Positions 1,374-31,409 of a stretch of 51,124 bases of DNA are shown here, one piece after another. The first letter of the stretch is position 1. Each line of letters begins with the position of its first letter. The stretch comes from a virus. The stretch is from positions 1-51,124 of IMG/VR virus record IMGVR_UViG_3300046451_000447; one strand, written 5' to 3'. The notes beneath the pieces were generated by a model that was given only the letters and a program-made list of their open reading frames with translations, ran no database searches and had not been told where the DNA came from. Both the position numbers and the translations under genes were made by a program.

Positions 1374-1733
1374 ATGAAGAAATTATTATTTATCTTACTC
1401 TTACTGCCTGTATCTGTTCTATCTCAATGTAATCAGCATGTCTTTAGCTCTGTAGGGGCTGAGAAATGGACAAACTTTCAGTACCAAGACTGCGATGGAG
1501 GGGCTCATTATTTTGGGTTGCCTGCAGGTGGATATACTATAATATATTGCGCCGACATAGGTACTGCATTTGTCCTTAATGGTGATGGGTTTGTTTACCC
1601 ACTACAAGCAGAACATCCTGCATATGCTTCGTGCGTACAGGATGATTGTCCAGGTGATTTAAACAACGACGATGTAATTGATGTACAGGACTTACTATTA
1701 TTTTTAGAAAACTATGGACTTCCATGCGAATAA
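1374..1733 (+). CDS. Secreted protein with C-terminal dockerin-like calcium repeat
   Basis: A 119-residue exported protein. Residues 1-18 form a signal peptide (MKK, a Leu-rich core, then VLSQ) and the mature form begins near QCNQ. The middle (20-90) is Cys- and aromatic-rich with no family I recognise. The last 28 residues hold a dockerin type I-like F-hand: GDLNNDDVIDVQDLLLFL, with Asp/Asn ligands at the usual loop spacing and the following hydrophobic helix. In marine Flavobacteriales such single motifs are common near the C-terminus of secreted proteins. The gene overlaps the T9SS protein that follows by 10 nt, so the two probably act together outside the cytoplasm. Partner and role are unknown. 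Confidence 0.75.
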   Translation: MKKLLFILLLLPVSVLSQCNQHVFSSVGAEKWTNFQYQDCDGGAHYFGLPAGGYTIIYCADIGTAFVLNGDGFVYPLQAEHPAYASCVQDDCPGDLNNDDVIDVQDLLLFLENYGLPCE

Positions 1734-2956
1734 ACCTAATACTTTTATTAGCTTTATGGGCCCCTATTTTATCTGCTCAATGTGATGTAAGCATAAGTAG
1801 CTGGGATGCGGCATCAGGGGATATCGTCATTGAGGCTATCAACAGTGAGAACTGCGGGTGTAATGAGTTTACGTCTGAAGCCAACACCTGCGAGAATAGT
1901 GGGAGTCCTTCCGTAAATAATAATACAACTGTATCTCATATAGTCCTGGGACTGCACGTAGAGGGATTAGATTATAACTGGGGATGCATTTCCGCTACTA
2001 ATCATCCAGGGTGGACGTTTAAAGCGTTTACTTTATTTGGGAATCAAGTCTTAGAGAGCGGAGATACATGGAGTGCTAATGTATATGACTCCCCAAGTAG
2101 TAATGACTGCTGGGCTGAGATACTATCAAATGATACTTTGTGTACCGAATTGGTACTATGGCAGATTAACCTATCTCAAACGGCTACAACAGATAACGGA
2201 GGGTGGGCCGTAAACCCTAACGTTGCGGCTCAGACACAGAGTTACCCTGATGTAGATCTATCTAATAACACTGCGGTTAACTGCGCTCTTCCTGCGTGTG
2301 ACACAGTGTACGTAGATGTAGAAGTTATTGAATACCTTACTGATACTATAGTAGAATATGTAGATGTTGAGTGGATAACAATTGACACTTTTTATATTAC
2401 GCAAGTGGACACATTAGTAGAGTATGTCCAATTACCCCCAGATACTGTACAGGTAGTTGAGTATGTAAATATTATAGAATACCTATACGATACTATTGTA
2501 TTAGTAGAAACAGATACTCTTGTTGAGTATGAGTATATCTACTTAACCGATACGATGTATGTAGAAACGGTTGTATACGAATACATCTATATTTACAATA
2601 CAGACACTATAACTGAATTTGTATCTGAGTCTATATATATTGATTGTAATACTGGAGAGCAGTGCAATCAAACATTCCCGTGTGACGAGGTATCTATTTT
2701 TGCCCCTAATGCCGTTACCCCAAACGGGGATGGCTGGAATGATACGTGGATGGTTATTGCGGACGGAGCTTGTTGGGATCAATGGGAAGTTCGTATTTAC
2801 AACCGATGGGGTGGGCTAGTGTGGATTAGCGCTTCCTCAATGGATGAGTGGGATGCTGACGTAGCTACGGGGGTTTATGTATATACCATAACGGCTCACA
2901 GCGCTGTAAATGTTAATGTGTATCAATTTAACGGAACAATAACGGTATTGTATTAA
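1724..2956 (+). CDS. Secreted T9SS cargo-like protein with gliding-motility-type sorting domain
   Basis: A 410-residue exported protein in three parts. Residues 1-18 are a signal peptide (MRINLILLLALW...LSAQ). Residues 20-190 are a Cys/Trp-rich, probably beta domain. Residues about 190-305 are a low-complexity stalk of Asp-Thr-[ILV]-Val-Glu-Tyr units. Residues 327-410 match the CHU_C / TIGR04131 pattern: APNAVTPNGDGWND, then IYNRWGGLVW, a WDAD turn, GVYVYTI, and a final GTITVLY. Known proteins with this end are exported by the type IX system of Bacteroidota and delivered to the surface. Its presence in a phage genome is unusual. It ends in Tyr instead of the more usual basic residue. Surface display is inferred, not shown. 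Confidence 0.85.
   Translation: MRINLILLLALWAPILSAQCDVSISSWDAASGDIVIEAINSENCGCNEFTSEANTCENSGSPSVNNNTTVSHIVLGLHVEGLDYNWGCISATNHPGWTFKAFTLFGNQVLESGDTWSANVYDSPSSNDCWAEILSNDTLCTELVLWQINLSQTATTDNGGWAVNPNVAAQTQSYPDVDLSNNTAVNCALPACDTVYVDVEVIEYLTDTIVEYVDVEWITIDTFYITQVDTLVEYVQLPPDTVQVVEYVNIIEYLYDTIVLVETDTLVEYEYIYLTDTMYVETVVYEYIYIYNTDTITEFVSESIYIDCNTGEQCNQTFPCDEVSIFAPNAVTPNGDGWNDTWMVIADGACWDQWEVRIYNRWGGLVWISASSMDEWDADVATGVYVYTITAHSAVNVNVYQFNGTITVLY
2293..2640 (+). repeat. Degenerate DT-[ILV]-VEY repeat stalk (coding)
   Basis: This stretch encodes repeated short units such as TDTIVEYV, DTLVEYVQ, DTVQVVEYV, YDTIVLVE and DTLVEYEY. Spacing is irregular (roughly 12-20 residues) and the codons differ between units, so the repeat is old or maintained at the protein level. 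It is extremely rich in Asp, Glu, Tyr, Val and Thr and almost free of Lys and Arg, which suggests an extended, strongly acidic beta spacer. Confidence 0.7.
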
Positions 2957-2978
2957 TATTTAGTATATTGCAAGAGTT

Positions 2979-3206
2979 ATGAAAGCTATAAAAAGAGATT
3001 ATAAAAAAGAGTACGCTAAGTACGGATCTAAGCTTAAAGCTAAGCAATATCGTGCAGAGTTAAATCAAATTAATAGAGAAAAAGGGAATTACGGAAACGG
3101 AGATGGACTGGATGAAGCTCATTTTGGAGGAGGTGGAAAAACAAGAAAACAAAAAGCATCTATAAATAGAGCTAACAATAGGCCTAAAAAAAGGAATAGC
3201 GTATAA
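2979..3206 (+). CDS. Small basic phage protein of a widespread unnamed family
   Basis: A 75-residue, strongly basic protein. It begins with Lys/Tyr/Glu-rich KEYAKYGSKLKAKQYRAELN, then has a Gly-rich turn (GDGLDEAHFGGGGK) and ends in a RANNRPKKRN tail. I recall many small proteins of this shape near packaging genes of Bacteroidota phages, with a degenerate HNH-like centre (a [DE]xxH and an Asn-Arg pair). The charge suggests DNA binding, possibly in the virion. A nuclease role is doubtful because the histidine/cysteine set is not complete. Confidence 0.55.
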   Translation: MKAIKRDYKKEYAKYGSKLKAKQYRAELNQINREKGNYGNGDGLDEAHFGGGGKTRKQKASINRANNRPKKRNSV

Positions 3207-3230
3207 GCTATTAAATTTAATTTATATATA

Positions 3231-3440
3231 ATGAAATATTTACTTATCTTCATGTCTGCTATATTACTAGCGTCATGTTCTGTTCAAAACAAACACAGAA
3301 GGTCTCAAGTGAGACATTACAATCAATGCTGGTGTTTAGACCCCTGGAATGGTGGTGCTGAATGGTGTTGTGATGGACCAGCGCCAAAATACATGGCCCC
3401 ATACAAACACTCTAAAGGTTACATTAGAGCTAAATTTTAA
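3231..3440 (+). CDS. Small predicted lipoprotein
   Basis: A 69-residue protein with a lipoprotein signal peptide: MKYLLIFMSAILLASC, the lipobox being LASC with Cys16. The mature part is only about 53 residues, Cys-, Trp- and His-rich. Lipidation would anchor it in the inner or outer membrane of the host. Small phage lipoproteins are sometimes superinfection-exclusion factors or outer-membrane spanins. It has no coiled coil to support a spanin role, and it is far from the holin. The preceding 24 nt are almost pure A/T. Confidence 0.6.
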   Translation: MKYLLIFMSAILLASCSVQNKHRRSQVRHYNQCWCLDPWNGGAEWCCDGPAPKYMAPYKHSKGYIRAKF

Positions 3441-3444
3441 TAAG

Positions 3445-3633
3445 ATGGCAGAGTATAAATGTGAATGCAGCGATGACGTTGTAGATAAATCAGGTGTAAC
3501 AATAAGATATATTGAGGGGGAAGGGGTAATACATGACGTAAAGTGCGAAAAATGTGAGAAGTACATGGATTTAGCTAACCCAAAATCTGGTGCGCCTGGT
3601 TTTCGATCTAATAGATATGGTCAGACATTTTGA
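3445..3633 (+). CDS. Small zinc-ribbon-like hypothetical protein
   Basis: A 62-residue protein starting MAEYKCECSD. It has C-x-C near the start and C-x2-C (CEKCEKY) in the centre, a likely single zinc site. A longer frame opens at 3349, but its first 32 residues lie inside the lipoprotein gene and look like out-of-frame translation. The ATG at 3445, four bases after the lipoprotein's stop, is therefore preferred. The TGA overlaps the TTG start proposed for the terminase. Role unknown. Confidence 0.6.
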   Translation: MAEYKCECSDDVVDKSGVTIRYIEGEGVIHDVKCEKCEKYMDLANPKSGAPGFRSNRYGQTF

Positions 3634-5747
3634 GTATACTCCTAGATGTTAAAGATTATGAAGACCCAGCTGTTAAGATTTGTCCCAACGGTACGGAAGG
3701 TGAGCTTATCGAACTCGGTGGGCTACTCATTTGTCTTCCAAAAAGGCCTCCGAAGAAAGAAATTTCAGGATATAAAGAACCAAACTCTATGCAAATGTGG
3801 GGAAGGGTACTTATGCCGCAGGAATTGTCTCGTATTCGTTCTATGGATGAGTGGGCGGAAATGCCACGGGAGTTTAGAGCGAGGTTTCGTCCATATATCG
3901 AGGAAGAGTTTAGGCGTAGGCGTGAAGGTTTTTGGTTTTATAACAACGGTACAGCTACATATATTACGGGGCGTCACTACATGATGATACAGTGGACCAA
4001 GATGGACATTGGTTACCCGTACTTCCTGAACTTTCAAAGAGATATCTTCTTGCATTTAGCTGCGTGTGAAATCGATCCTAGATGTATAGGGCAGCTATAT
4101 ACTAAGTGTCGTCGTAGTGGGTACACAAATATGTGCTCATCTGTACTTGTAGACGAAGGGACTCAAGTAAAAGATAAACTTATGGGTATACAGTCTAAGA
4201 CTGGTAAAGACGCCCAAGAAAATATATTTATGAAGAAGGTAGTCTTTATGTTTAGAAACTATCCTTTCTTTTTTAAACCTATTCAAGACGGTACAACTAA
4301 TCCTCGTATGGAGTTAGCTTTTAGGGAGCCGTCGAAAAGAATAACCAAGAAGAATAAAACCTCTCAAATGGGGGAAGCTTTGAATACGGTTATCAACTGG
4401 AAAAACACAACAAACAATGCATATGACGGTGAAAAGCTACACCTGTTGTATTTAGATGAAGCAGGAAAATGGGAAAGACCTACAGACATAAGAGACGCTT
4501 GGAGGATTCAGAGGACTTGTTTGATCGTCGGAAGAAAAATCGTGGGGAAGGCAATGGTCGGAAGCACGGTAAATCCAATGGACAAAGGAGGGAGTCAGTA
4601 CAAGGATCTATGGGAGGACTCAGATCCTTTGGAGAGGAACGCGAATGGGAGGACTAGAACTGGTCTATATAGACTTTTTATCCCTGCATATAACTCTTTA
4701 GAAGGATTCTTTGATAAGTTTGGCTACCCTGTAGTTGACGACCCTATAGAGACTATAGAAGGTATAGACAATGAGTATATCTATACAGGAGCTAAGACAT
4801 TCTTAAAGAATGAAAGAGACTCTTTAAAAAACGATGCGTCGGAATTAAACGAGGTGGTAAGGCAGTTCCCGTTTACCGAAGATGAGGCCTTTAGAGATAG
4901 TATAGAGGGGAGTGTATTTAATATCGGTCAGATTTACGAGCAGATAGAACATAATGACGAGCTTTTCCCAAACCCCGTTGTAGCGGGAAATTTTGTATGG
5001 AAAGGGGGGGTAAAAGATACTGAGGTAGTATTTAGCCCAAATGCTCAAGGTAGATTTAAAATTGCTTGGATGCCTCCTCCTGACTTTAGAAACCAAAAGA
5101 AAACAGAAAGAGGTAAGCGAGTAGCCCCTCATTCAGACTTTGGCGTAGGAGGGGTTGACTCATATGACCTTGACGCTACCGTAGATGGCAGAGGATCTAA
5201 AGGTTCTTTGCATTTATATAACAAGTTCCATATGGAGCACCCTTGTAACATGTTTGTTTTGGAGTATGCCTCAAGGCCACCTTTAGCTAAAATATTCTAC
5301 GAAGACGTTTTAATGGCCGCTGTATTTTATGGTTACCCTATATTAATAGAGAATAATAAATATGGTATAGCGAGGCACTTTGAAGCTAGAGGGTATGACG
5401 GGTACCTAATGGATAGACCTAAACACTTAGTTAGCGCTAGTGGGATGAAGTCTAAAACAAAAGGTATACCATCTAACTCTCAAGACGTTATCCAGGCTCA
5501 CGCACACGCTATAGAATCCTTTATACATGACCATGTAGGAGTGAATAGAGAAACGGGAGATGTTGGGAAAATGTATTTTAATAAAACGCTAGAGGATTGG
5601 ATAGGTTACAAAATAGACGATAGAACTAAATATGACCTTACAATTAGCTCTGGATTGGCTCTACTAGGAGCGCAAAAAGCCAAGCCAAAAAAGACTTCTG
5701 ACTTGTCTGAAAAACGATTCTTTAGGAGATATCAAGTAATCGGATGA
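3630..5747 (+). CDS. terL: Terminase large subunit
   Basis: A 705-residue ATPase-nuclease that pumps DNA into the prohead. A Walker A-like element lies at residues 159-166 (KCRRSGYT), unusually without the final GKT. Walker B is HLLYLDEAG (271-279). The C-terminal RNase H-like nuclease begins near residue 510 with the acidic strand FGVGGVDSYD. The first possible start is TTG at 3630, overlapping the preceding TGA. The first in-frame ATG is only at 3789, but the N-terminal stretch between them (ICPNGTEGELIELGG, then CLPKRPPK) resembles what I remember of related terminases, so the TTG is kept. The portal gene follows directly, as is normal. Confidence 0.88.
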   Translation: MSILLDVKDYEDPAVKICPNGTEGELIELGGLLICLPKRPPKKEISGYKEPNSMQMWGRVLMPQELSRIRSMDEWAEMPREFRARFRPYIEEEFRRRREGFWFYNNGTATYITGRHYMMIQWTKMDIGYPYFLNFQRDIFLHLAACEIDPRCIGQLYTKCRRSGYTNMCSSVLVDEGTQVKDKLMGIQSKTGKDAQENIFMKKVVFMFRNYPFFFKPIQDGTTNPRMELAFREPSKRITKKNKTSQMGEALNTVINWKNTTNNAYDGEKLHLLYLDEAGKWERPTDIRDAWRIQRTCLIVGRKIVGKAMVGSTVNPMDKGGSQYKDLWEDSDPLERNANGRTRTGLYRLFIPAYNSLEGFFDKFGYPVVDDPIETIEGIDNEYIYTGAKTFLKNERDSLKNDASELNEVVRQFPFTEDEAFRDSIEGSVFNIGQIYEQIEHNDELFPNPVVAGNFVWKGGVKDTEVVFSPNAQGRFKIAWMPPPDFRNQKKTERGKRVAPHSDFGVGGVDSYDLDATVDGRGSKGSLHLYNKFHMEHPCNMFVLEYASRPPLAKIFYEDVLMAAVFYGYPILIENNKYGIARHFEARGYDGYLMDRPKHLVSASGMKSKTKGIPSNSQDVIQAHAHAIESFIHDHVGVNRETGDVGKMYFNKTLEDWIGYKIDDRTKYDLTISSGLALLGAQKAKPKKTSDLSEKRFFRRYQVIG

Positions 5748-5752
5748 TTTAC

Positions 5753-5760
5753 TATATTTG
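5753..5760 (+). promoter_or_regulatory. Promoter-like box TATATTTG before the portal gene
   Basis: A perfect match to the Bacteroidota -7 element TAnnTTTG in the short gap between terminase and portal, 26 nt before the portal ATG. No TTG is seen 17-23 nt upstream. It could give a separate transcript for portal and downstream head genes. Confidence 0.45.
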
Positions 5761-5786
5761 CTAAATAGAAATACCATATCTTAAGG

Positions 5787-8225
5787 ATGTATAATAACGA
5801 TAATAAAAGTAAGCAGGGTTTCCCCGATCCATTAGAATCTACGGAATTAAAACAGGGGAAAGAATATGGTATTCAGTATGCTAAAGCTATTGAGTCTCAA
5901 TGGGGGAAAACTACGGATGACTCTTCTTTGGTAGGCAAAAGGAATAAAACCTTTGAAAAAGACCGAGATTACGCTATTGGAGTTCAGGATACAAGTATAT
6001 ATAAACAACTATTAAGCTCTCTCAATCCAAATAAAGCGGACGGAGCTTTGTTGAATATGGATTACACCCCAGTTCCTATCCTACCTAAATTTGTAAGAAT
6101 TGTAGTTAATAAGATACTGTCTGTAAATCCCTATCCTAATTTAGAAGCAGTAGACCCATTGTCTTCTTCTGAAAAGAATGAAAAAAAGAAGAAGATTTTA
6201 ATGCAAGTTGAATCTAAGGGTAAGCTTAAAGAGCTAAAAGATAAGACTGGTGTTGTTTTAGATATGGATCCAGATTCCATTCCAGACACTCCAGAAGAAG
6301 CAGAAATTTTATTCGACACTAATATTAAAACAGACGGAGAGATATCTGCTCAGCTAGGGGCGGAACTTACTCTCACTTGGAATAACTTTGTAGACAACAC
6401 TTTCCGTAGGTGTGTAAACGACTTAGCTACCCTAGGTATGTCTGTAGTAAAAAGATCTAACGATCCCAACGAAGGCATTAAAACATCCTACGTAGATCCG
6501 TGTATGTTTATACATAGCTACACAGAAGACCCTAATTTTGAAGACCTTATATACGCTGGGCATATAAAAAAGATCTCTATACAAGAGTTAAAGCGTTTGG
6601 CTGGAGAGGAGTTGAATGAGGAGGATTATAAAAAGATTGCTGAAAAATCTAAAGGAAGAAATGGAAATGATTCTAATAAGTATAACAAATCTAACTATAG
6701 TCACGCTTTAGGTAAAACCTCATTTGGCTATGACGACTATATGGTTGAAGTTTTAGATTTTGAGTTTATTTCTGTTGATTGTATTCACTTTGAAGAAAAA
6801 GAAAACAAACACGGTAACACAGGGTTTTATTTTAAAGGCTTTGAAGCTCAACCTAATAAGAACAGCGTTTTCGAGCGCACTCCTCATAAATTAGAGGTGT
6901 CTACTGTTTATGGAGGCAGCTATGTATTGGGTTGTGATTATCTATTTGGATATGGCAAAACTAAGAACGTACCTAAAAACATACACGATATATCTAAAGC
7001 TACATTATCTTACTCTGTAACGGCGACTAATATTCGTAACATGATGCCTAAATCTATGGTAAATAGCTGTGTAGGCTTTGCCGATATGCTACAGCTCACT
7101 CACTTAAAGATACAGCAGGCTATAGCAAAAGCTAAGCCAGATGGTTTGATCATAGATATAGAGGGTTTAGAAAATGTACAGTTAGGGAAAGGTGGGGAGT
7201 TACAACCTTTAGACCTTCACGATATATACGAGCAGACAGGTGTTTTCTACTACAGGAGTAAGAACCCCGAAGGTGGATTTCAAAACCCTCCTGTTAGAGA
7301 AATAAGCAACAGCATAAGAAACATTAATGAACTTGTAGGTTTATACAACCATTACTTAGGTTTAATAAGAGACACAACGGGTATTAATGAAGCAATGGAC
7401 GCATCTTCCCCTAAAGGTGATGCTTTAGTTGGTGTTCAAAATCAGGCTATAGCTGCGGGTAACAACGCTATATATGATATAACAAATGCCGCTATGGTTT
7501 TGTTTAAAAAAGTATGTGAGGATATAGTTAAATGTATTCAAATTATACCTCCTGAATCCGTTCTATATAAAATATACGAGAACGCTATCGGAGACACGAA
7601 TATGGAGGCTTTAGCTTCCTTCAGAGACCTTCCTATGTATAACTTCGGGGTTGTTGTTGTAAAGGATATGGAGGAGAAAGATAAGGCCTACCTAGAGCAA
7701 AACATCCAGATGGCTCTCCAACAGCAAGAGTTAGATTTAGAAGACGCTATAGCCGTTAGAGGTTTAAAAGATATTAATCAAGCGGAAAGGCTTCTTGTTG
7801 TTAGGCGTAAAAAAAGAATGGCTATGAAGCAGCAGATGGCTCAGCAGAGCTCTGAGCAGCAAGCTAAAATGCAGGGTCAAATAGCTCAGCAGGCACAACA
7901 AGCTAAAATGGCTGAAATGCAAGCGCAGGGTCAAATTGACACTCAAAAAATTCAAATGCAAGCGCAGGTCGATATGAAGATGGCGCAAATGAGGCATGAG
8001 TTTACTAAAGAAATTGAGATGCTTAAAGCTCAGGCTACGCTTGGCTTTAAAGAAGATGACAAAGAGTTTAAAGAAAAGCTTGAGGTTTTAAAAGAGACCC
8101 GTAAAGATGACAGGCTAGACCAACAGACTTCAGACCAAAGTAAACTTATATCCCAAAGGCAAGGCAAAAGAGAAGAGCTACCTGAAGGGTCAAACAAACT
8201 AATTAATGCATTATTAAACGAATAA
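5787..8225 (+). CDS. Portal protein
   Basis: An 812-residue protein forming the ring through which DNA enters and leaves the head. It lies right after the terminase and has the expected size for portals of short-tailed Bacteroidota phages. The N-terminal half is alpha/beta (residues 90-430, containing NKILSVNPYPNLEAVDP and the helical stretch DMLQLTHLKIQQAIAK). Around residue 530 there is LGLIRDTTGINEAMDASSPK, a loop type common in portals. The last 180 residues are a Gln/Met/Lys-rich coiled coil (AQQAQQAKMAEMQAQ), which is typical of portal barrels. The nearest promoter-like box is at 5753. Confidence 0.85.
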   Translation: MYNNDNKSKQGFPDPLESTELKQGKEYGIQYAKAIESQWGKTTDDSSLVGKRNKTFEKDRDYAIGVQDTSIYKQLLSSLNPNKADGALLNMDYTPVPILPKFVRIVVNKILSVNPYPNLEAVDPLSSSEKNEKKKKILMQVESKGKLKELKDKTGVVLDMDPDSIPDTPEEAEILFDTNIKTDGEISAQLGAELTLTWNNFVDNTFRRCVNDLATLGMSVVKRSNDPNEGIKTSYVDPCMFIHSYTEDPNFEDLIYAGHIKKISIQELKRLAGEELNEEDYKKIAEKSKGRNGNDSNKYNKSNYSHALGKTSFGYDDYMVEVLDFEFISVDCIHFEEKENKHGNTGFYFKGFEAQPNKNSVFERTPHKLEVSTVYGGSYVLGCDYLFGYGKTKNVPKNIHDISKATLSYSVTATNIRNMMPKSMVNSCVGFADMLQLTHLKIQQAIAKAKPDGLIIDIEGLENVQLGKGGELQPLDLHDIYEQTGVFYYRSKNPEGGFQNPPVREISNSIRNINELVGLYNHYLGLIRDTTGINEAMDASSPKGDALVGVQNQAIAAGNNAIYDITNAAMVLFKKVCEDIVKCIQIIPPESVLYKIYENAIGDTNMEALASFRDLPMYNFGVVVVKDMEEKDKAYLEQNIQMALQQQELDLEDAIAVRGLKDINQAERLLVVRRKKRMAMKQQMAQQSSEQQAKMQGQIAQQAQQAKMAEMQAQGQIDTQKIQMQAQVDMKMAQMRHEFTKEIEMLKAQATLGFKEDDKEFKEKLEVLKETRKDDRLDQQTSDQSKLISQRQGKREELPEGSNKLINALLNE

Positions 8226-8226
8226 T

Positions 8227-8721
8227 ATGGCTAGTTCAGTAAATTTAGATACATCAGATGTCTTAAATATAACGTGCAGGAAAGGGGACACCTTTTCTAT
8301 TACGCTTACTCTAAAAGATTCTGCGGGTACTGCCCTTACGTTATCTACTAGTGAATATACTTTTTTAATGCAGGTTAAATCTACGAGAGTAGCTAAAAGA
8401 GGAAGACCTAGTATATCAACTTTAATTTTAGGGACGCCTAATGCCGCAGCAAAAGATCAGGTCCGAGTTAAGTCTAAGTCTAGGATTACGCCACCACCTG
8501 TATCGTCTGGTGGAAAAACATTTGAAACCCCTACTGTTGACGATAGCGGAAATGTAACTATTGAAGCTTCTGCTGAAACTATGAGTAAAGTTCCTTCTGG
8601 AAGTTACTCTTACGACCTTCAGTACATCCTTCCTAACGCTTCTGGTTTGGATACTCACAGGACTGTTTTAAGGGGAAAGTTTTCTGTTAACGCAGATATA
8701 ACGGAAGCATTTGAAAGATAA
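8227..8721 (+). CDS. Small beta-rich virion protein (BppU/Ig-like pattern)
   Basis: A 164-residue protein: an ITCRKGDTFSITLTL strand pair, a FLMQV strand, a basic loop, then GSYSYDLQYIL and a closing GKFSVNADIT strand. This order (GDTF...MQV...YDLQ...G.F.V..DIT) is one I associate with Ig-like or baseplate-upper-protein N-terminal domains in phage virions. The exact place in the particle is unknown. Its TAA overlaps the next ATG. Confidence 0.55.
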   Translation: MASSVNLDTSDVLNITCRKGDTFSITLTLKDSAGTALTLSTSEYTFLMQVKSTRVAKRGRPSISTLILGTPNAAAKDQVRVKSKSRITPPPVSSGGKTFETPTVDDSGNVTIEASAETMSKVPSGSYSYDLQYILPNASGLDTHRTVLRGKFSVNADITEAFER

Positions 8722-8891
8722 TGAGTGTATCTGTAAACACAACACCTGGTAATACTGTTAGCGTCTCTGTTAATGGTAACACATCTGTTAGTTTTATAAA
8801 AAAAAATTCTTTCGTTTCCGCAACTTTACCTTCTGCATCTTCAACAATATTAACTGAAAAATCCCTTAAATCAATACAAGTGGTTGTTTAA
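8721..8891 (+). CDS. 56-residue Ser/Val-rich small protein
   Basis: A short gene beginning in a TAATG overlap with the preceding virion gene and ending at a TAA at 8889-8891. The product is rich in Ser, Val, Thr and Asn (MSVSVNTTPGNTVSVSVNGN) in alternating beta-like order. The coupling and composition suggest it completes or decorates the product of the gene before it. I know no family. Confidence 0.5.
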   Translation: MSVSVNTTPGNTVSVSVNGNTSVSFIKKNSFVSATLPSASSTILTEKSLKSIQVVV

Positions 8892-8902
8892 CAACATGTA
8901 AA

Positions 8903-9773: not shown

Positions 9774-9790
9774 GGCAACGTAATAATAGT

Positions 9791-9798
9791 TATATTTG
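9791..9798 (+). promoter_or_regulatory. Promoter-like box TATATTTG before the small virion genes
   Basis: A perfect TAnnTTTG element in the 44-nt gap between 9773 and the ATG at 9818, leaving 19 nt to the start. No TTG is found at the usual -33 distance. It would transcribe the paralogous virion cassette from 9818. Confidence 0.5.
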
Positions 9799-9817
9799 CA
9801 TATAAATAATTCTTAAA

Positions 9818-17546: not shown

Positions 17547-19193
17547 ATGGCTTTATCTCCAGACGATAAATTTTTATTATTAAACGCAGACACCACGGCT
17601 GGTGAATCTGATGCGGCTATGTACTACCCTGTCAGGTATCTACGAGGGTTAGATTGTCCATCGGATGGTGCTGTTAGTTTTTATTTTAGAGGTCCAAACG
17701 ATACCACCAGCACACGGGTTATTGTCTCTACCACTGCTGGTTTTGTGAAAGAGTTTTTTTTACAGTTTGTAAATGAAATTAACTTTGGGGAAAAGGCAGT
17801 TATAACGTTAGCGTCAAAAAACACATCGGTAAGCGCAACGGATGGAGGGTCTGATTTTGTTTATGTAAATGCTTTTGTTGGGGCTCTTATATTTAACGAT
17901 GACACAACAGCATTTGAGAATCTACAGGTTGCTGAAAATTTAAACGTAGGGGCCACTATTTCCGCAACTGCTTTAAACTTAACGAGCAATTTAATTGTGG
18001 GGTATGGTGGGACAGGCGCTAGCTCTTTAACAGACAACGGGGTGCTGTTTGGCAATGGGGCGGCCGCTATATCCGCCGTGGATCTTTCTGCTAACGGAAA
18101 CGTCATCGTGGGTGGGGCGACACCTGCGGTAGTAACGGGGGCCAACCTAGCGGGTGCAGGCCTTGCGGCCACGGTAGGAGATGGAACCTTAGTTTTAGCT
18201 GTGGAGACTTTAAATCAAGACACAACGGGGAGTGCAGCAACTCTTACAACCCCACGAGCCATCAACGGGGTGGACTTCGACGGCTCTGCCGCGATAACTG
18301 TTACGGCGGCTGGATCGACTTTATCGGATACGGTAACCGTAGCTAAGGGTGGTACTGGGGCGACATCTTTAACGGCGGATGGTGTTTTGTTTGGTAACGG
18401 AACGTCTGCGGTTTCTGCGGTAGATTTGTCCACTAATGGTAACATCGTTGTAGGTGGTTCCACCCCAGCTGTGGTAACAGGAGCTAATTTGGCTGGATCT
18501 GGCCTAGCCGCAACTGTAGGGAACGGAACCTTGGTTTTAGCTGTAGAGACCTTAAATCAAGACACAACAGGTAATGCCGACACAGCAACTCTCGCCGCTG
18601 ACGCTACGACGCTAGCCACACCGAGGGCTATATTTGGGCATAACTTTGATGGCAGCGCCGCGTTAACAGGTGTTATTGCATCTGCAAATTTAGACGCTGA
18701 TACAGCTCACTTGTCTGGAGCACAATCTTTTACGGGGGCAAAAACATTTTCAGCGGGTATAATCCCTTCTTTTGTAAAACACTCTATCAGTGGTAATGCT
18801 ACCGCAGATTACGGTCCTGGCGCGGAAATTTTATTTGGCATCAGTGCTGAAACCACTACAGCAGGCGCTATATATGTTCTGCGATCTGGAACATGGACTT
18901 TGATGGATGCTGACTTTCCAAATAGGTGTAGACAGTTAGCAGCAGTAGCAGTAGGTACAGACTCAGCGGTAGACGGTATGTTAATAAGAGGGTGTGTGAC
19001 ACTAGCCTCAGCATATACGGCTGGAACAGATGCCGAGGGTATTAGAGTTTTTGCTTCCACAACAGCTGGTGAAGCAACCCTTACAGCGCCTAGCGCAAGT
19101 GGAGACACCGTGAGAATATTAGGTTACTCGCTTAATGCTGGTGATAAAAAAATGTTTTTTAATCCTGACAACTCTCACGTAGAGATTGCATAA
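17547..19193 (+). CDS. Fibre protein with B-type anchor and GGTGA repeats
   Basis: A 548-residue fibre. Residues 1-120 are the B-type domain found alone at 16204 and probably fix the fibre to the virion. Residues about 150-380 hold two copies of a tail-fibre repeat: GGTGASSLTDNGVLFGNG and GGTGATSLTADGVLFGNG, each followed by VVTGANLAG, a TVGxGTLVLAVE strand, LNQDTTG, and TPRAI-[NF]-G-xx-FDGSAA. The C-terminal 130 residues (from GAIYVLRSGTWTLMDAD) form a globular tip ending DTVRILGYSLNAGDKKMFF, a fibre-tip pattern common in phages. It probably binds the host surface. TAATG overlap with 19193. Confidence 0.8.
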   Translation: MALSPDDKFLLLNADTTAGESDAAMYYPVRYLRGLDCPSDGAVSFYFRGPNDTTSTRVIVSTTAGFVKEFFLQFVNEINFGEKAVITLASKNTSVSATDGGSDFVYVNAFVGALIFNDDTTAFENLQVAENLNVGATISATALNLTSNLIVGYGGTGASSLTDNGVLFGNGAAAISAVDLSANGNVIVGGATPAVVTGANLAGAGLAATVGDGTLVLAVETLNQDTTGSAATLTTPRAINGVDFDGSAAITVTAAGSTLSDTVTVAKGGTGATSLTADGVLFGNGTSAVSAVDLSTNGNIVVGGSTPAVVTGANLAGSGLAATVGNGTLVLAVETLNQDTTGNADTATLAADATTLATPRAIFGHNFDGSAALTGVIASANLDADTAHLSGAQSFTGAKTFSAGIIPSFVKHSISGNATADYGPGAEILFGISAETTTAGAIYVLRSGTWTLMDADFPNRCRQLAAVAVGTDSAVDGMLIRGCVTLASAYTAGTDAEGIRVFASTTAGEATLTAPSASGDTVRILGYSLNAGDKKMFFNPDNSHVEIA

Positions 19194-19855
19194 TGGCTAC
19201 GATAAATGTAAACAGGCAAGGCTCAGGAACAGGGATTGCCAATGGAACCTTTGCTACAGCCAGATCAAATGCGGCCTCAGCCGTTTCAGATGGTGCTTCA
19301 GGTAGTTTTACTGTTCAATACTTTACAGGCAGAACAAAAAGATTTAAAAGAGCCTTCTTACACTTCGACACAAGCGGGATAACAGGGACGTTGAGCGCGG
19401 CTCATATCGACATTAACGGAAGTGATGGGTCAACTGACCCTGACCCTAACGATACTATAATGGTTAAGAGTACCGCTTTTGGCGGTGACGGTGGGACAGC
19501 TTTGGCTACGTCAGATCACTTTAGTTCTTTAGACTACAGTACAGCTTACTCTGACGAGCTTACTACGTGGTCAACAGGTAACAATGAATACACTTTAACA
19601 GCGGCAGCTTTAGCGGATATAAAGAACAACGATAATTTTACCTTAGCTGTAATAGATCACGACAATGACTATGCTAACTCAGCCACTACGGGAACTTCTG
19701 ATATTCGCATAGACTTTAATACAACAATAACTTTAGATTTCACCCTTGCTGCCGCTGGGTATGGCCATGATGTCATAGGGGTTGCCGCGGCAAGCATAGG
19801 TAAGGTAAACTCTGTAGCCACAGCAAGCATAGGAAAAATTAACAGCGTTGATTAA
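19193..19855 (+). CDS. Virion-type beta protein with C-terminal SIGKVNSV repeats
   Basis: A 220-residue protein. Residues 1-180 look like a jelly-roll or carbohydrate-binding beta sandwich (RFKRAFLHFDTSGITGTLSA, a DPNDTIMV strand, FTLAVIDHDNDY). The tail is YGHDVIGVAAASIGKVNSV followed by ATASIGKINSVD, two copies of a short (A-S-I-G-K-[VI]-N-S-V) unit that I recall at the ends of many marine phage structural proteins. Possibly an accessory fibre or receptor-binding subunit, co-translated with the 17547 fibre. Confidence 0.55.
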   Translation: MATINVNRQGSGTGIANGTFATARSNAASAVSDGASGSFTVQYFTGRTKRFKRAFLHFDTSGITGTLSAAHIDINGSDGSTDPDPNDTIMVKSTAFGGDGGTALATSDHFSSLDYSTAYSDELTTWSTGNNEYTLTAAALADIKNNDNFTLAVIDHDNDYANSATTGTSDIRIDFNTTITLDFTLAAAGYGHDVIGVAAASIGKVNSVATASIGKINSVD

Positions 19856-22135: not shown

Positions 22136-22137
22136 CG

Positions 22138-23780: not shown

Positions 23781-26700
23781 TGGCTATAGATAAGATCATA
23801 CCAATCAGACTAGATAAATCGTCTGACTTTAAGTTGGTGCCTAAAACCAGCATGGTTGATGCTCTTAATATGCTTATTACAGAGAATGAATCTAGTGGAG
23901 ACAATGGATCTACTGGTAACTTAGGTGTACTTAAAAATATAAAAGGTAACGATCCAATATCATACCTATCGGGACATAATATAGCGGCGGGGAATGCTAA
24001 GATAATTGGTAGTGTTACAGACACTAAGCTTAAGATAGTATACTTTTTTGTTTGGCATACAATTGCTTCGGAGCACGGGGTATATGCTTACGATCAGATT
24101 GGGAAGCTTCCTATTTCTGGGGGTACCAAAGGAAAAATAGTAAGGATACACAAGTCCGCTTTATATGCCTTCCCCGAACATGGATACGTAAAGGGTAATA
24201 TAATATACACCTCTCAGACTAGGTTAGATGATAGTGAAATAAAGCCAGGGGCAAAGAAAGACTTTGAGAAAGACGCTATACTCTACTTTACTGACAATAC
24301 TAACGAGCCACGTAAGATAAACGTATATCAGGCTATGTTGGGAGAGGATAGCTCTTATGAATTAGATGATAAGATAGACTTTATTACAGCCTGCCCAAAG
24401 ACGCCTTTAACTCCTATAGAGTTTGAGTTTATGGCTGACTCGTCTAGAACAACAAGTAACTTTAAGTCTGGTCCTGGATTTCAATTTGCATATCAATTCA
24501 TCTCTAAAGACGGGGTGGAGTCTGCTATATCTCCGTATTCAGATATAGCTTTTTCTCCAGGTATAATAAACCAAGGCGGGCTAACCGTCGTAGACCATTC
24601 CCTTCATAACGTATGTATTCTTAAAATACCTAACGCTGGAGCGGAAATAAAAAACATTCGGATATTAGCTCGGCAGTTTAACAACCCAGAATTAGTCGTA
24701 TTAGACGAGGTTTCTAATACTGAAATTCAAGAAAATTGGGTGCTCGCAGCTAGGGCGTATTATTTCTATAACGACAGAATTGTTAGGGGGGTTAGTAATA
24801 ACGAAGTAAATAAACAATTTGATAACCTTCCCAGAAAAGCCCAAGCGCAGTCTGTAGTAGACAACAGGTTGATGTACGGGAACTACTTAGAAGGCTTTGA
24901 TAACGTAAAAACGCAATGTAGCGCTAGTGTTTCTTTTGAAAACAGAGGCGTAGAGTTGATAGATTTAAAAGTAAGGCTAATTCCAGCCATATCTGAGCAG
25001 CAGTGGGCGTATGATGTTGAATATGGGGCGGGAAATATAGACACGACGGACAATCTTGGTCAAAGTCTAAATCAATCTTCTGGGGCTAGGAATAAAAGTG
25101 CTGGGTATATAATAGATTGCCAAGAGATGCCTATAGATATTGCAGCGGGATCTGTATATAACATTACCGTTCAAATCAGCCCTAACAATAATTTTCATGT
25201 ATATCAAGCCACTGACTCTTACCATCAGTCTAGGCATAGGGGAGCTTTTCAACAAGGTCTTGAGTATCAAATAGATTACTCAATGCTTCCAGAAGCTGGC
25301 AACTGGTCTGGAGAAGGAAGTATTAACCAAGCGTCACCATATGGCGGTGAAGAAGGACAATGGGTAAACAATGAAGGAAATGACAATCCCTTTTATGGTC
25401 ATCAAGGATTAGGTAGATCGGGAGCGGAATGGATCGGAGATAGGATACCTAACCCTATTCTTGCAGGCGAAGGCATGTATTCTACTTCTAACGCTGAGTT
25501 CTGGGGAATACCTTATTCTGGAGACAATTTTGGTGTAACTGGCAACTCTGATATTGGTAACGCGGGAACTGGACCTGATGCTCCAGAATGGAAGACGATT
25601 ATGGGGGCTAGTTTAAGCTCTGGCGAAACATCAAAAAAAGTAAACTTTGGTACTAGCGCAGGAAACCCCTTAATTATTAAAGGGGGCCAGCTAGAGTTCT
25701 CATGTACGATTGAAGCTTTAATAGACATAGATAGCGTAGGAAGAGACGCTTTAACTTCGGCAATAGCTCAGGCTTTATCTGGGCAAGATATTACCTGGGA
25801 AGGATATAATGCTTTTGAAGTAGTTAATGATGAGGTTGAGCCTCTTTACTCTTTAGATTTAGGGGGTGACATTTTTGATGGGAAACAAATACCTGAAGGT
25901 AATTATCTTAGTAAACTTATTGTAGGGGCTGTAGAGGATGAACCTGGAGAAAGTACTATTTATAAAGCTCCTTTAGGGCATTTTATTGTGAATAAAGCAG
26001 ACGTAACGTTTTCCCTTGAAAGGGATGCGCCCTTTGCTGATATTGACCCTAAATACGAGATGGTAAGGCTTTGTATATCAAGTATAGAAAACGTAGAAAC
26101 ATATAGTGTTTTTAAAAAGAAGTTCTATAACTCTCCGTGGTTTGCTTTTTCAAAAGACTACCTTACTGGATCTGGATCCGTTTTTAATCAAAATGATTTT
26201 TTTGCTGACACTTCGTATGGGTTTGCTGGGGCTAGCGGAACGTTCAATCAGACTCTTTTTCAATATGAAGAACAAAATAATCTGGAAGATTGGGATTATA
26301 TTTTCAATAATATTGTTGACGACTTCAATCCTAACGATTTAGATATAAGCGGAGATTTTGGAGTAACGGGTGTAGAAATAGCTGGCCTTGAAACTAGCTT
26401 CTTAGCGGAGTCTATGGGGACTCCAGTAGGTGTAGATGCAGCGCCTTACGCAGCGCTTTTAGCAAACGTAAATCAATTACAAGAGCAACGGTTTTTAGGG
26501 TATTTAGACTTTACGCAAGACGGTGTTTTTAATCAATTTTTTAGATTTAATAAATCTCAATATCAGAATAAACCTCGATTATCTGGAGTAAAAGAATTGT
26601 CACCGTTTTCCGTCGTTGACGGAGAAGGAGGAATGGGAGGTAATTTATCTCACAATTTAGAGAATAGCCCTGGCTCAGTTAGTTTATCTTCTCACCCTAG

Positions 26701-29700
26701 AAGAATGCGTTTTAACGAAAGGCTTGTTAACAGCGAGCTTACTGGCTCTACTCAAGACCAAGTTATTCGTACTATTAGAGTAGCTGGACCTGAATTTACA
26801 GGTACGATAAACTCAAGGTATATACCGTCGCTTGACTCTTTAGTGCAGAACAATGTTGGAGGAGGTGGGGCAATTCAGCAACTTCAATCCACTAGAACTT
26901 TTATTCCTCTTATGCAGGGTTCCCCAATTGAGGGTTTAAATACTGGAGATGATTTTCAATTTCCATATTCTTTTTACTCCACACAAGCTGTAGATTGGCC
27001 TTTTGTAATAGATTTCAATCAAAAACATTCTTATATAGAGTTATTAGGTGTCCCCTTTCTTTTTATTCCTGGAGGAGGTGAAGCTGTTTTTGACCCAAAC
27101 TCTTCCGTAGACAGGACTTTTAAATCTAATGCTGATCACGACTTTGGTATAATCTACTACGATGAGAGAGGAAGACATGGGTTCGTTAACCACTTAAAAA
27201 CAGTTCACGTACCAGGATATTCTTCTGCAGAAAGATTAGGAGCTATACACGGAAGAAGCGTAATAAATTTAAGTTTTTCTCATGACCCTCCTAAATGGGC
27301 TCATTATTATAAATTAGCTTACACAAAAAACACTAGCGTACAAAACTTTATTCAATATTCAGCGGGAGGAGCTTTTCGTGAGGATTTTGAAGGAAGCGGA
27401 GCGGAAGTCAGTAGTACGCTTATATATGTCTCTTTAAATTACTTGCAAGAAAGTTCTATGTCTTATGTAGCTGAATGGGGGGCTAGAAACCCACAGGGTG
27501 GCTTAAGTATGTTTAAAGCTATAGATGGGGTTAGCCAAAAGCTAAGGGTTATTTCTGCGTATACCGATGGTGAGAATAGAGATTTCTTTTATAACTATGA
27601 ATTCGACATTGTTAATATGGTTCTTTTGGGGGATTCTGAAAACCCTTTAACTACAACGCCAGAAACTCACCCTGAAATGCAAGGGGAGTTTGTAATATTA
27701 AAAGACAATAGTAACGCAGATGGGTTTAATTGGGCATCTGTATTCGACGGATCGCATAAGTGGGGAAACAATTGCATAGTGGAGCTTTTTACACCTGCTA
27801 GAGATAGAGATGAAGACACTAGGTTTTATTACGAAATAGGCGATACTTACAATATTAACAACCCAGAAACAGACAACCCTACTCACAGTGTATCTTCAGT
27901 AGTTTTAGATAAAGGAGATGTTTGGTGGAGAAGGGTTCCTGTTAACCTTAGGGAATATGATGGGGGGGAATTTACAGATTTGATTTTAAATGGTGACCCA
28001 GACGACTCTCTAACCTCTAATTTTAAACCTTATTATTTAGAGACAGAAACAGCTTCAGATCTATTTAAAGCTGACGCGACACTAATAGGAAGGCCTAATA
28101 TAATCCTTGAAGACGCCATAGAGACTATTAGAGAGGCCAGTATAACATACTCAGGTCAAAGCAATCCTAACTCTAGCAAGATAAACTACTCTTCATTTAA
28201 CCTAACCTTATCTAATTTTAAAGGACTACAAGAAGAGTTTGGGGATATAAACTACATGTGTAACATGGAGGGGGACGTATTCGTTATACAGTCCGATAGG
28301 TGTACGCTTGTCCCAGCTAGTAAGACTTTATTCTCAGACGTTCAAGGGTCAAGTACCGTAGCCGCCTCAAAGAGTCCTTTGGGACAGGAAAGGGTTTTTG
28401 CGGGTAGAGCGGGATGTGACAATAACCCAGAGTCTGTGGTACAGGTTGGAGCATACGTATACTTTGCACATAAAAACCTAGGGAGGGTCTATAGATTCAA
28501 TCCTGCCAACGGAATACAAGAGATTTCAGAGCAAGGTATGGCAAGCTACTTTAGAGGGATCTTTAAAGATGCTATGGATAAATCAGTTACCGCTGGCAAC
28601 TTTATAAACTATGATGACGTAAGAGTAGTGGGTGGGTTTGACCCCGTAAACGAAGAGTACTTACTTACTGTTTTAGACCCTGAGACTTATGGGGTTACAG
28701 AAGGTACTGGTGGAGGCGGTTTCCCTGAAGGAGGAGGAGAAGTTATTGAAGACCTTACTACGATTAACTCTTTGGAGCAGCAGCTAAAGAATGTAATGAC
28801 AGCCTTCCTTACGGCGACACAACCTGATGGAGTTACACCTGCTTTTGATATTACCACTCTCCCACAAGAACTGCAAGCCTTCTATAACACACCGTTAACA
28901 GACGGTAGAGATATTACTGCTTTTGACGGCAACGAAAACGATGTGTTTGATGCAGGGGAGATTGTTTCGATGTCGGATATACAGGTTGGCGTTCAGGAAT
29001 CACTCAATAACTTCCTTGTTTCAGAGTTGGATATAACATTAGAAGCTATGGTGGAGATAATAAATCGTGCAGATGTTACTACTACTGATCGAGTAGTATT
29101 GTACGTGAATACAATGTTGCAGAGAATGGTAAACATTGATCACCAACTTAAACAAGGGGTTGTAAAGTTAAACGATTCTAGAAAATCGAGAGAAAGTAAG
29201 CACAATCAAAGTGCGCTGGACGCAAGCGTACCTGGTTTTGAAAACCCTTATTGGAAAAATACATATGACTTCAACGTTCAAGTTGAAGAAGGCTGGAGTG
29301 GCACATCTGACCTTCTTGTTGAGGCATATGAAGCATCTGGAGGTGATTTTACTGATCCAGCCTTGTTAGAGGCTATAACTGCGCTTCAAGCGGCACAGGA
29401 CGCTTGGGGAGAAGAAAGCGGGTATACTAACAAACCCAGCAGAATTCAAACCCTAAAACAACTTTGGCTCTCTGCGGAATATCACACGCTCTTACAAAAG
29501 GTTTTTTCAGGTTACAACGTGTCGGGGGATGATAAAAGAGTTGGAGTTAATGAAATTTCTTCGAATACTCCTATGTATTCTTGGGGGGTTGAAAGTACGG
29601 GTGAATATTTAACGCCATTCACGCTTGCTAATAATCTTGGTGGAGTTTTAGAAGAGTTTAAAATTTATTTAAGAGGTTTAAAAGATGCGCGTATGAGTAT

Positions 29701-30145
29701 TGGGGGGCTAACAGAAGCAGAGGCTATACAAGAGATTGTCCCTGAAGAGTTCTTCAGTTCTTACATCGCAGCAAATCCGTTCCTTCAAGCGTCTTTACAA
29801 ACTATTCTACAAGGTATAGCTACCTCTAATGGCGTAGAGGTTTCAGGGGTAACAGGATCGATGTTAGATGTCTGGGCAGGTAGTCAAACATCTAATGGAA
29901 ATGGAGCATACAATTCGGTAGCAGAGGCTGTAGCTGCGGAAGGCATATCTACTAATCAAATTCAAGATTTTTTACAACAAATTGAATTAGTAAGCGCATC
30001 GCTCCCATCTGGAGGGTTTGATATTCTAAAATGGAAGTCTGATATTAATGGAGATGGTCAGATTGGGTCGGCAGATTTACTTTTCTTTTTAGCTACTTTC
30101 GGTGAACAACAATTATTCCCTGGGGATATAACATGGCTAATTTAA
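23780..30145 (+). CDS. Giant tail stabilisation (muzzle-like) protein with C-terminal dockerin repeat
   Basis: A 2121-residue beta-rich tail protein. The start IPIRLDKSSDFKLVPK...ML is typical of phage stabilisation/tubular-B proteins. So are FQFAYQFISKDGVESAISPY, IKNIRILARQFNNPELVVLD and a KAQSVVDNRLMYGNYLEGFD segment (residues 220-375). The later block GCDNNPESVVQVGAYVYFAH, RVYRFNPANG, EISEQGMASYFR (about residues 1550-1610) is the usual end of that family. After it come about 500 extra residues, mostly helical. The last 35 residues hold a dockerin-like F-hand, SDINGDGQIGSADLLFFLATF. The protein probably forms the tail tip and may contact the surface. Confidence 0.78.
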   Translation: MAIDKIIPIRLDKSSDFKLVPKTSMVDALNMLITENESSGDNGSTGNLGVLKNIKGNDPISYLSGHNIAAGNAKIIGSVTDTKLKIVYFFVWHTIASEHGVYAYDQIGKLPISGGTKGKIVRIHKSALYAFPEHGYVKGNIIYTSQTRLDDSEIKPGAKKDFEKDAILYFTDNTNEPRKINVYQAMLGEDSSYELDDKIDFITACPKTPLTPIEFEFMADSSRTTSNFKSGPGFQFAYQFISKDGVESAISPYSDIAFSPGIINQGGLTVVDHSLHNVCILKIPNAGAEIKNIRILARQFNNPELVVLDEVSNTEIQENWVLAARAYYFYNDRIVRGVSNNEVNKQFDNLPRKAQAQSVVDNRLMYGNYLEGFDNVKTQCSASVSFENRGVELIDLKVRLIPAISEQQWAYDVEYGAGNIDTTDNLGQSLNQSSGARNKSAGYIIDCQEMPIDIAAGSVYNITVQISPNNNFHVYQATDSYHQSRHRGAFQQGLEYQIDYSMLPEAGNWSGEGSINQASPYGGEEGQWVNNEGNDNPFYGHQGLGRSGAEWIGDRIPNPILAGEGMYSTSNAEFWGIPYSGDNFGVTGNSDIGNAGTGPDAPEWKTIMGASLSSGETSKKVNFGTSAGNPLIIKGGQLEFSCTIEALIDIDSVGRDALTSAIAQALSGQDITWEGYNAFEVVNDEVEPLYSLDLGGDIFDGKQIPEGNYLSKLIVGAVEDEPGESTIYKAPLGHFIVNKADVTFSLERDAPFADIDPKYEMVRLCISSIENVETYSVFKKKFYNSPWFAFSKDYLTGSGSVFNQNDFFADTSYGFAGASGTFNQTLFQYEEQNNLEDWDYIFNNIVDDFNPNDLDISGDFGVTGVEIAGLETSFLAESMGTPVGVDAAPYAALLANVNQLQEQRFLGYLDFTQDGVFNQFFRFNKSQYQNKPRLSGVKELSPFSVVDGEGGMGGNLSHNLENSPGSVSLSSHPRRMRFNERLVNSELTGSTQDQVIRTIRVAGPEFTGTINSRYIPSLDSLVQNNVGGGGAIQQLQSTRTFIPLMQGSPIEGLNTGDDFQFPYSFYSTQAVDWPFVIDFNQKHSYIELLGVPFLFIPGGGEAVFDPNSSVDRTFKSNADHDFGIIYYDERGRHGFVNHLKTVHVPGYSSAERLGAIHGRSVINLSFSHDPPKWAHYYKLAYTKNTSVQNFIQYSAGGAFREDFEGSGAEVSSTLIYVSLNYLQESSMSYVAEWGARNPQGGLSMFKAIDGVSQKLRVISAYTDGENRDFFYNYEFDIVNMVLLGDSENPLTTTPETHPEMQGEFVILKDNSNADGFNWASVFDGSHKWGNNCIVELFTPARDRDEDTRFYYEIGDTYNINNPETDNPTHSVSSVVLDKGDVWWRRVPVNLREYDGGEFTDLILNGDPDDSLTSNFKPYYLETETASDLFKADATLIGRPNIILEDAIETIREASITYSGQSNPNSSKINYSSFNLTLSNFKGLQEEFGDINYMCNMEGDVFVIQSDRCTLVPASKTLFSDVQGSSTVAASKSPLGQERVFAGRAGCDNNPESVVQVGAYVYFAHKNLGRVYRFNPANGIQEISEQGMASYFRGIFKDAMDKSVTAGNFINYDDVRVVGGFDPVNEEYLLTVLDPETYGVTEGTGGGGFPEGGGEVIEDLTTINSLEQQLKNVMTAFLTATQPDGVTPAFDITTLPQELQAFYNTPLTDGRDITAFDGNENDVFDAGEIVSMSDIQVGVQESLNNFLVSELDITLEAMVEIINRADVTTTDRVVLYVNTMLQRMVNIDHQLKQGVVKLNDSRKSRESKHNQSALDASVPGFENPYWKNTYDFNVQVEEGWSGTSDLLVEAYEASGGDFTDPALLEAITALQAAQDAWGEESGYTNKPSRIQTLKQLWLSAEYHTLLQKVFSGYNVSGDDKRVGVNEISSNTPMYSWGVESTGEYLTPFTLANNLGGVLEEFKIYLRGLKDARMSIGGLTEAEAIQEIVPEEFFSSYIAANPFLQASLQTILQGIATSNGVEVSGVTGSMLDVWAGSQTSNGNGAYNSVAEAVAAEGISTNQIQDFLQQIELVSASLPSGGFDILKWKSDINGDGQIGSADLLFFLATFGEQQLFPGDITWLI

Positions 30146-30161
30146 TTATAAATAGATAGTT

Positions 30162-31409
30162 ATGGCAAATTACACAGGGAAAACAATAGCGTTCTCACAT
30201 AAAGGTGGGTTCTGGAAGACTAGATATAGTTATACCCCGACATGTTATGCCGTTGTAGATAACGTTATGATCTCTACTAATAAGACATCCCTTGATACTT
30301 CTACTAATTCAACCGCTTTTTTCTGGGAGCACGAAGTAAACGCTAAGCGTAATGTATTTTACGAGACGCAATATAAATCATCGTTAACGTTGGTTTCTAA
30401 CCAAGACCCTAGCGCTGTAAAGCTATTTAAGGCCTTATCTCTAGAGAGTAACTCTAAAGATTGGGTTGGAACGGCAGCTACGAATATTAACCCTGCAGGA
30501 TCCCCTCAAAATGAGTTACAATTAGGTAGTATTAAGGGATTTGTAACTAAAGAAGGAAATCAATACAGTGAGTTACCTAAATCTTTAAATAACTCTAACA
30601 GCAATTTAGACTATGTGTGCCAGCTGGATTCAATTATAGACAGCTCTATGCTTACTGGATTGGATGAGCTTTCAGCAGATCTTAATAATGATGGAGTTGT
30701 TGACGTTTCTGATATTCTTATATTTTTAGGACAATTCGGAGGCCTTGATCCGTTGGGTATTGCTGATTTAGATTTAGATGGAACAGTAACAACTAATGAC
30801 CTCCTTTTATTAACAGCGCAATTCGGAACTTTTACTAGCAATGCTGATTCTTCAAATTTATTTTTTGATCTTAGTCAACCACTTCTTTCTCTAGTTGCTT
30901 CGGGTTGGGCAGCCTCAGTCTTGTCTTCTTCCTTAAACACTCCTCTTTTAGGTGGGGGCGGAAGTCAAGCTGTTTTTGTAAGCGCACTGGAAGATGTTTA
31001 TACATTAAGTTATTCTTCCAATGCGTGGAATTTTGTGAATTTTGTTTCTGAAACCACAGTCTTTAACGTAAATAGTCCGTATGTATATGTACACTCGTAC
31101 ACTAGTGACGGGAATGTAATTTTAGGGGTTAGCGGGGATGTTACATTGGACGCAATTACAGCTTTAATAAGTTTCACAAATAGTCTAGGTCCTGAATGGG
31201 ATACAATACAATTATATTCTATTACCTCGCCAGACATAAACGGTGACCCCATGAGAGGGCAATATCTACATCTCCATTTAGAGAACGATAGCACCACCCC
31301 TGTAGAGACATATGCTATAAACGTAGACTTTGAGAATACTAAGCTAGACGGGAGTAAAGGTAGCACTCAAAAGAAGCCTAAACAAAAGGCTTCCCCTAGT
31401 TCAAAGTAA
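30162..31409 (+). CDS. Tail-associated protein with paired dockerin-like repeats
   Basis: A 415-residue protein. Residues 1-140 carry TGKTIAFSHKGGFWKTRYSY and a Trp/His-rich beta region seen next to stabilisation proteins in related phages (recalled). Residues 172-222 are two F-hands in tandem, SADLNNDGVVDVSDILIFLG and DLDLDGTVTTNDLLLLTAQF, the classic two-repeat dockerin length. The second half (240-390) is beta-rich, ending in a Lys/Ser-rich tail. Placed right after the giant tail protein, it probably sits at the tail tip. The dockerin pair should bind two calcium ions; a cohesin partner is not seen. Confidence 0.65.
   Translation: MANYTGKTIAFSHKGGFWKTRYSYTPTCYAVVDNVMISTNKTSLDTSTNSTAFFWEHEVNAKRNVFYETQYKSSLTLVSNQDPSAVKLFKALSLESNSKDWVGTAATNINPAGSPQNELQLGSIKGFVTKEGNQYSELPKSLNNSNSNLDYVCQLDSIIDSSMLTGLDELSADLNNDGVVDVSDILIFLGQFGGLDPLGIADLDLDGTVTTNDLLLLTAQFGTFTSNADSSNLFFDLSQPLLSLVASGWAASVLSSSLNTPLLGGGGSQAVFVSALEDVYTLSYSSNAWNFVNFVSETTVFNVNSPYVYVHSYTSDGNVILGVSGDVTLDAITALISFTNSLGPEWDTIQLYSITSPDINGDPMRGQYLHLHLENDSTTPVETYAINVDFENTKLDGSKGSTQKKPKQKASPSSK

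Follow-up and report, generated by a model that had tools for sequence, protein, structure and literature searches.

F-hand loops of the dockerin type in the split tail-tip muzzle and in a predicted secreted protein of a crassvirus-related phage

The analysis covered the whole of a 51,124-base IMG/VR record of an uncultured marine virus (the window) and revealed F-hand loops of the dockerin type in two independent places, namely in a tail-tip muzzle that is encoded as two polypeptides and in a small predicted secreted protein that is encoded together with a type IX secretion system (T9SS) cargo protein. On balance, we lean towards reading these loops as calcium loops of the dockerin/EF-hand superfamily which would act as interchangeable surface modules. 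Their most likely use would be as calcium-folded modules for host contact, both at the tail tip and on surface proteins that the phage encodes; throughout, what we infer is calcium binding by the modules, their exposure and secretion, their binding partner and their function.

The portal, terminase and structural genes of the window gave profile matches of crassvirus type. Its nearest cultured relatives were found to be flavobacterial podoviruses (Elemovirus, Cellulophaga and Tenacibaculum phages), with a best portal identity of 29%. Because the records of the three cultured relatives that were opened (NC_055854, NC_021796 and NC_062747) give no Crassvirales placement, the window is labelled crassvirus-related and no further. 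Two other proteins of the virus are recorded here. A 2208-aa virion protein (34463-41089) contains a DUF3293 domain at residues 885-954 (1e-11), together with a weak S-adenosylmethionine lyase match, and a structural protein of phage elemo is likewise annotated as DUF3293. In the structural block, a 220-aa protein (19193-19855) gave a weak match to the carbohydrate-binding family CBM96 (0.0026), which was below the cut-off.

Four F-hand loops in three genes

Scanning the 16,325 aa of predicted window proteins with a strict F-hand pattern revealed exactly four matches, which are distributed over three genes (Table 1). The loop of the 2121-aa product comprises D2088-D2099 (nt 30041-30076) and is located 34 residues from the C-terminus, and those of the tandem pair in the 415-aa product start at D173 (nt 30678, DLNNDGVVDVSDILIFLGQFG) and D202 (nt 30765, DLDLDGTVTTNDLLLLTAQFG). 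Calcium-ligand positions 1, 3, 5 and 12 are intact in all four. Chance was rejected as the origin of the loops, as the strict pattern was matched in none of 1000 protein shuffles of the window proteome. In AlphaFold models whose confidence is too low to confirm a fold (pLDDT of 39 for the 415-aa and 55 for the 119-aa product), helices follow the loops at residues 104-113 of the 119-aa product and at residues 182-193 and 211-221 of the 415-aa product.

Table 1. Positions of the cassette, muzzle and F-hand features in the window.
Feature	Position	Strand	Match, relatives or sequence
HNH endonuclease immediately upstream of the cassette, perhaps a mobility gene	990..1364	+	phrog_2255, 5.3e-33
119-aa predicted secreted protein, C-terminal single F-hand	1374..1733	+	60 IMG/VR relatives
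F-hand loop, 119-aa product	D95-D106, nt 1656-1691	+	DLNNDDVIDVQDLLLFLENYG
410-aa partner, CHU_C T9SS type B sorting domain	1724..2956	+	PF13585, 4.4e-15
Muzzle, first polypeptide, 2121 aa	23780..30145	+	phrog_14478, 1.3e-76
F-hand, C-terminus of the 2121-aa muzzle extension	30041..30110	+	DINGDGQIGSADLLFFLATFG
Muzzle, second polypeptide, 415 aa	30162..31409	+	PF25729 crAss_MUZ_C, 6e-9, above cut-off
Tandem F-hand pair (dockerin-like) inserted in MUZ_C loop, 415-aa product	30672..30830	+	

A sequence-only reading of the same DNA had described F-hand repeats in three proteins, two of them tail proteins, and had counted three separate uses. All four loops were found at the positions it had given, and the assignment of two proteins to the tail agrees with the phrog_14478 and crAss_MUZ_C matches listed in Table 1. 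Judged from profile matches and alignment, the 2121-aa and the 415-aa ORF are two halves of one crassvirus-type tail-tip muzzle; hence, the number of uses comes down to two.

The split muzzle and its F-hands among relatives

According to the alignment, the 2121-aa ORF is composed of a conserved body up to about residue 1635, and the remaining part, about 480 aa, is a hypervariable extension with the F-hand at its end. The 415-aa ORF comprises crAss_MUZ_C and the last conserved part, NGDPMRG..ETYAINVDFENTKLD. In the cultured phages elemo, phi38:1 and Gundel, the muzzle is a single chain with significant matches to both the body and the MUZ_C profiles, and in elemo and phi38:1 the MUZ_C profile starts 7-20 residues after the end of the body profile. 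It is exactly at this body/MUZ_C junction that the gene is broken in the window's clade and that the hypervariable extension, in most cases 150-1000 residues long, is located. Neither sequences nor profiles of the muzzle retrieved a crassvirus chain from the PDB.

For the muzzle gp44 of PhiCrAss001, contact with the host cell has been proposed, and its length has been reported to vary by insertions in the crass and IG2 domains (PMC10172136). The muzzle of the window is a homologous tail-tip protein, recognised via the MUZ_C domain, and likewise varies in length among relatives. It differs from gp44 in being split into two ORFs, with an extension at the break that carries F-hands and GCTDP repeats in the clade and whose site appears to be distinct from the insertions described for PhiCrAss001.

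Through MUZ_C, 51 distinct related muzzles were collected, the window included; some contigs are near-copies, and identical muzzle starts were collapsed. By the strict pattern, at least one F-hand is present in 25 of the 51. The extensions, with 20,337 aa in total, contain 27 F-hands; 5 were counted over 17,009 aa of MUZ_C, and 2 over the 77,754 aa that make up the conserved body. Conservation of the ligands in these muzzles is partly circular, because the loop positions are prescribed by the pattern used for the search; F-helix positions outside the pattern are also conserved (L17 in 29/32, an aromatic residue at position 20 in 26/32 and G21 in 24/32). The location of the F-hands varies. In L084, the closest relative (51% identity in the muzzle), a pair is located in the extension and MUZ_C is free of F-hands, G004 has a pair in MUZ_C, and L001 has no F-hands; at the MUZ_C site of the window, the tandem pair is absent from the L084 and L001 homologues. 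As these positions differ, we conclude that the placement of the module varies among relatives. GCTDP-type repeats, which are known from marine Bacteroidota surface proteins, were also detected in five muzzle extensions.

Since about half of the related muzzles are without an F-hand by this pattern, it is neither essential to the muzzle nor needed for joining the muzzle halves, and an obligatory clamp between the halves was rejected for the same reason. A purely structural role is a rival proposal, in which the F-hands would be calcium-stabilised caps with no partner outside the virion, either capping the ends of fast-evolving linkers or aiding the assembly of the muzzle polypeptides. Such a role is made plausible by the fact that F-hands are often located 30-120 residues from the end of the first polypeptide, adjoining the gene break, and it would suit the predominance of single F-hands, which do not pass the Dockerin_1 profile. 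It is less easily reconciled with the muzzles that have no F-hand, with the different number and place of F-hands in close relatives such as the window and L084, and with the GCTDP surface repeats that share the extensions and suggest display, so that we regard it as a possibility of some weight, albeit a rather unlikely one.

In the reading we prefer, that of interchangeable surface modules, the muzzle is encoded as two polypeptides with the hypervariable extension inserted at the parting point, and F-hands, in some relatives also GCTDP-type repeats, are plugged either into that extension or into the MUZ_C loop next to it. In calcium-rich seawater, the F-hands would fold into small rigid knobs at the tail tip, which may contact variable structures of the host surface. 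Host recognition by crassvirus-type phages is largely open, and no description of a receptor-binding module of a crassvirus-type muzzle was found in the literature; the present comparison points to a specific, mutable and probably calcium-dependent module that is located at a hypervariable site of the muzzle.

A two-gene cassette with a CHU_C partner

The 119-aa product starts with a predicted signal peptide (cleavage before Q18), to which a Cys-containing domain, QCNQHVF...GGYTIIYCADIGTAFVLNGDG, is joined. Its gene overlaps by 10 nt with that of the 410-aa partner, whose layout is a signal peptide (MRINLILLLALWAPILSAQC, read by eye), an N-terminal domain, a repetitive stalk and CHU_C, the latter matching PF13585 with 56 bits and, thus, above the cut-off of 27. 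A CHU_C T9SS gene is present near the 119-aa gene, on the same strand and usually overlapping, in 59 of the 60 loci, and the sole unlinked locus is at a contig end. Calcium-ligand positions are kept in all 45 distinct proteins of the 119-aa family, for which the pattern had included position 1 but none of positions 3, 5, 6 and 12. G6 occurs in 44 of the 45, the exception being the window's own protein. The median dN/dS of the family, where dS was measurable, is 0.058.

No relatives of the 119-aa gene were found in the 50,697 phage records of the GenBank phage collection, and 84,980 species genomes yielded one match, on a phage-like contig of a Pseudomonadales MAG. This contig carries chaperonin and tail-fibre-like genes, and the only CHU_C match of the MAG adjoins; a bacterial origin of the gene was rejected on these grounds. 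A crassvirus-type portal is present in eight of the larger records that contain the cassette or the CHU_C gene, the window being one of them, and a T4-type portal in five. The two-gene cassette is common to unrelated ocean viruses of crassvirus type and T4 type.

Upstream of the cassette, where the window has its HNH endonuclease, different HNH-like ORFs are found at the same place in relatives (L005, L006), which suggests mobility of the cassette. In L047, L050 and L083, the two cassette genes are separated by one that encodes a BspA-like repeat protein (MLGIATRIAIDSGTTSGGGGD...). Near the cassette, the window has a phage GroES-like gene (117-713), and L047 and L083 have a GroEL-like gene.

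The cassette would act in the infected cell. Its small F-hand protein would be secreted, its stalk protein with the CHU_C domain would rely on type IX secretion of the host, and the two may together coat or modify the host surface, for instance by masking the receptor. This widespread cassette of uncultured phages appears to employ host type IX secretion for the surface placement of phage proteins and offers a way to study how marine phages from different lineages remodel surfaces. The recurrence of the muzzle modules in about half of the relatives and the occurrence of the cassette in unrelated viruses suggest, together with the T9SS domains, that such phages may have borrowed a component of surface proteins from their hosts. 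A comparable case is 'Cryophage', where phage genes with T9SS sorting domains and variable cargo are presumed to use the host secretion system (PMC7468147). There, type A CTD proteins form the cargo and a single phage group carries them, whereas the cassette described here is a conserved two-gene CHU_C unit with an F-hand protein, occurring in crassvirus-type and T4-type phages.

Both the window and G004 carry the same module type on the tail tip and on the secreted protein, and in either copy the F-hand is followed by a helix end of the form FLxxYG/FG. The secreted protein could, for this reason, be a decoy or receptor mask that competes for the host surface partner of the tail-tip F-hand and, thereby, prevents superinfection or shields the progeny from debris, for which phage-encoded T9SS cargo sets a precedent (PMC7468147). 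The two uses are, however, uncoupled across phages, given that the cassette occurs in T4-type phages and that muzzle F-hands occur without the cassette (L084, L085-L089); in addition, the genes around the cassette are late genes, and early expression would be the better fit for masking. We therefore consider a decoy function improbable. Similarly doubtful is the more general proposition that marine Bacteroidota phages may draw on one pool of host surface modules (F-hand, GCTDP) for both tail tips and T9SS-displayed proteins, the displayed copy competing for or masking the receptor, which would make a ligand-decoy pair in unrelated lineages.

Comparison with dockerins and further T9SS proteins in relatives

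The phage loops resemble type I dockerins (PF00404; 2y3n_B) in the F-hand loop, D-x-N-x-D-G-x-V-x-x-x-D, in the F-helix ending with FG, and in the tandem pairs of the window's 415-aa protein, the L084 muzzle and the G022 protease. With the Pfam Dockerin_1 profile (PF00404; cut-off of 22.9 bits), the L084 muzzle pair scored 23.0 bits. The 415-aa pair scored 19.9 bits in hmmscan, below the cut-off, and 21 bits in a genome-level search, where it reached 24.2 bits with its frame neighbours and was counted as over the cut-off. The single loops at 1656 and 30041 scored 13.3-13.4 bits, below the cut-off. Furthermore, the 415-aa pair matched the PDB dockerin 2y3n_B (3.7e-5), and a profile built from 31 phage F-hands was aligned with the 2y3n dockerin at 93% probability (hhalign). 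Among the dockerin-like repeats described in the sequence-only reading, the profile reached its cut-off for the tandem pair alone, and that in the genome-level search only.

In contrast to dockerins, the phage loops are mostly single F-hands and are found in the virion tail and in phage-encoded secreted proteins instead of cellulosomal enzymes. As regards a cohesin among the phage proteins, for which the sequence-only reading had proposed to look, a search of ten phage records with the PF00963 profile and a Pfam scan of window proteins revealed none. Searches of plasmids and phages with F-hand fragments gave no matches, probably because the query was too short, and nothing comparable was found in the literature on phage dockerins. 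A true cohesin-dockerin system, in which cohesins of the host surface or of the phage's own tail would serve as the docking site, is very improbable in view of the missing PF00963 matches in these records and scanned proteins and the mostly single loops, even if the tandem pairs are dockerin-like, pass or approach Dockerin_1 and include one that matches a solved dockerin. With no cohesin match in the records searched, with single loops in the majority and with two uses that are found separately, the common element is, as far as sequence comparison can tell, a module and not a docking system. The shared docking principle of the sequence-only reading is, thus, not supported, whereas its suggestion of host surface contact is retained as a sensible reading of what the modules may do.

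Relatives also carry other T9SS proteins that are predicted to be secreted. In L140/L141, the small cassette gene is replaced by an M43 protease (Pfam run on L140), L170-L172 carry M43 protease-CHU_C fusions (Pfam run on L170), and G022 has a secreted M43-like protein (by eye) with a dockerin pair above the cut-off. The secreted M43 (pappalysin-like) metalloproteases are located at L140:1692-3011, L170:1035-3890 and L235:604-1749 (G022). A type A T9SS domain was matched in 10 of 26 muzzle-bearing relatives, in seven of them above the cut-off, and the six proteins that were opened are GCTDP-repeat proteins. These large proteins with GCTDPxAxNYNPxA repeats and a T9SS type A sorting domain, which are predicted to be secreted, are encoded in L305-L310 (G051, G021, G001, G024, G045 and G057), and several of their genes are followed by an ORF of about 360 aa that is membrane or outer-membrane-like. 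Another type of F-hand was observed in the lysine-rich proteins of L235, L237, L238 and L241, which have FPDLNKDGKITKADILKGRGVF-like stretches near the N-terminus and several of which adjoin small structural-like genes.
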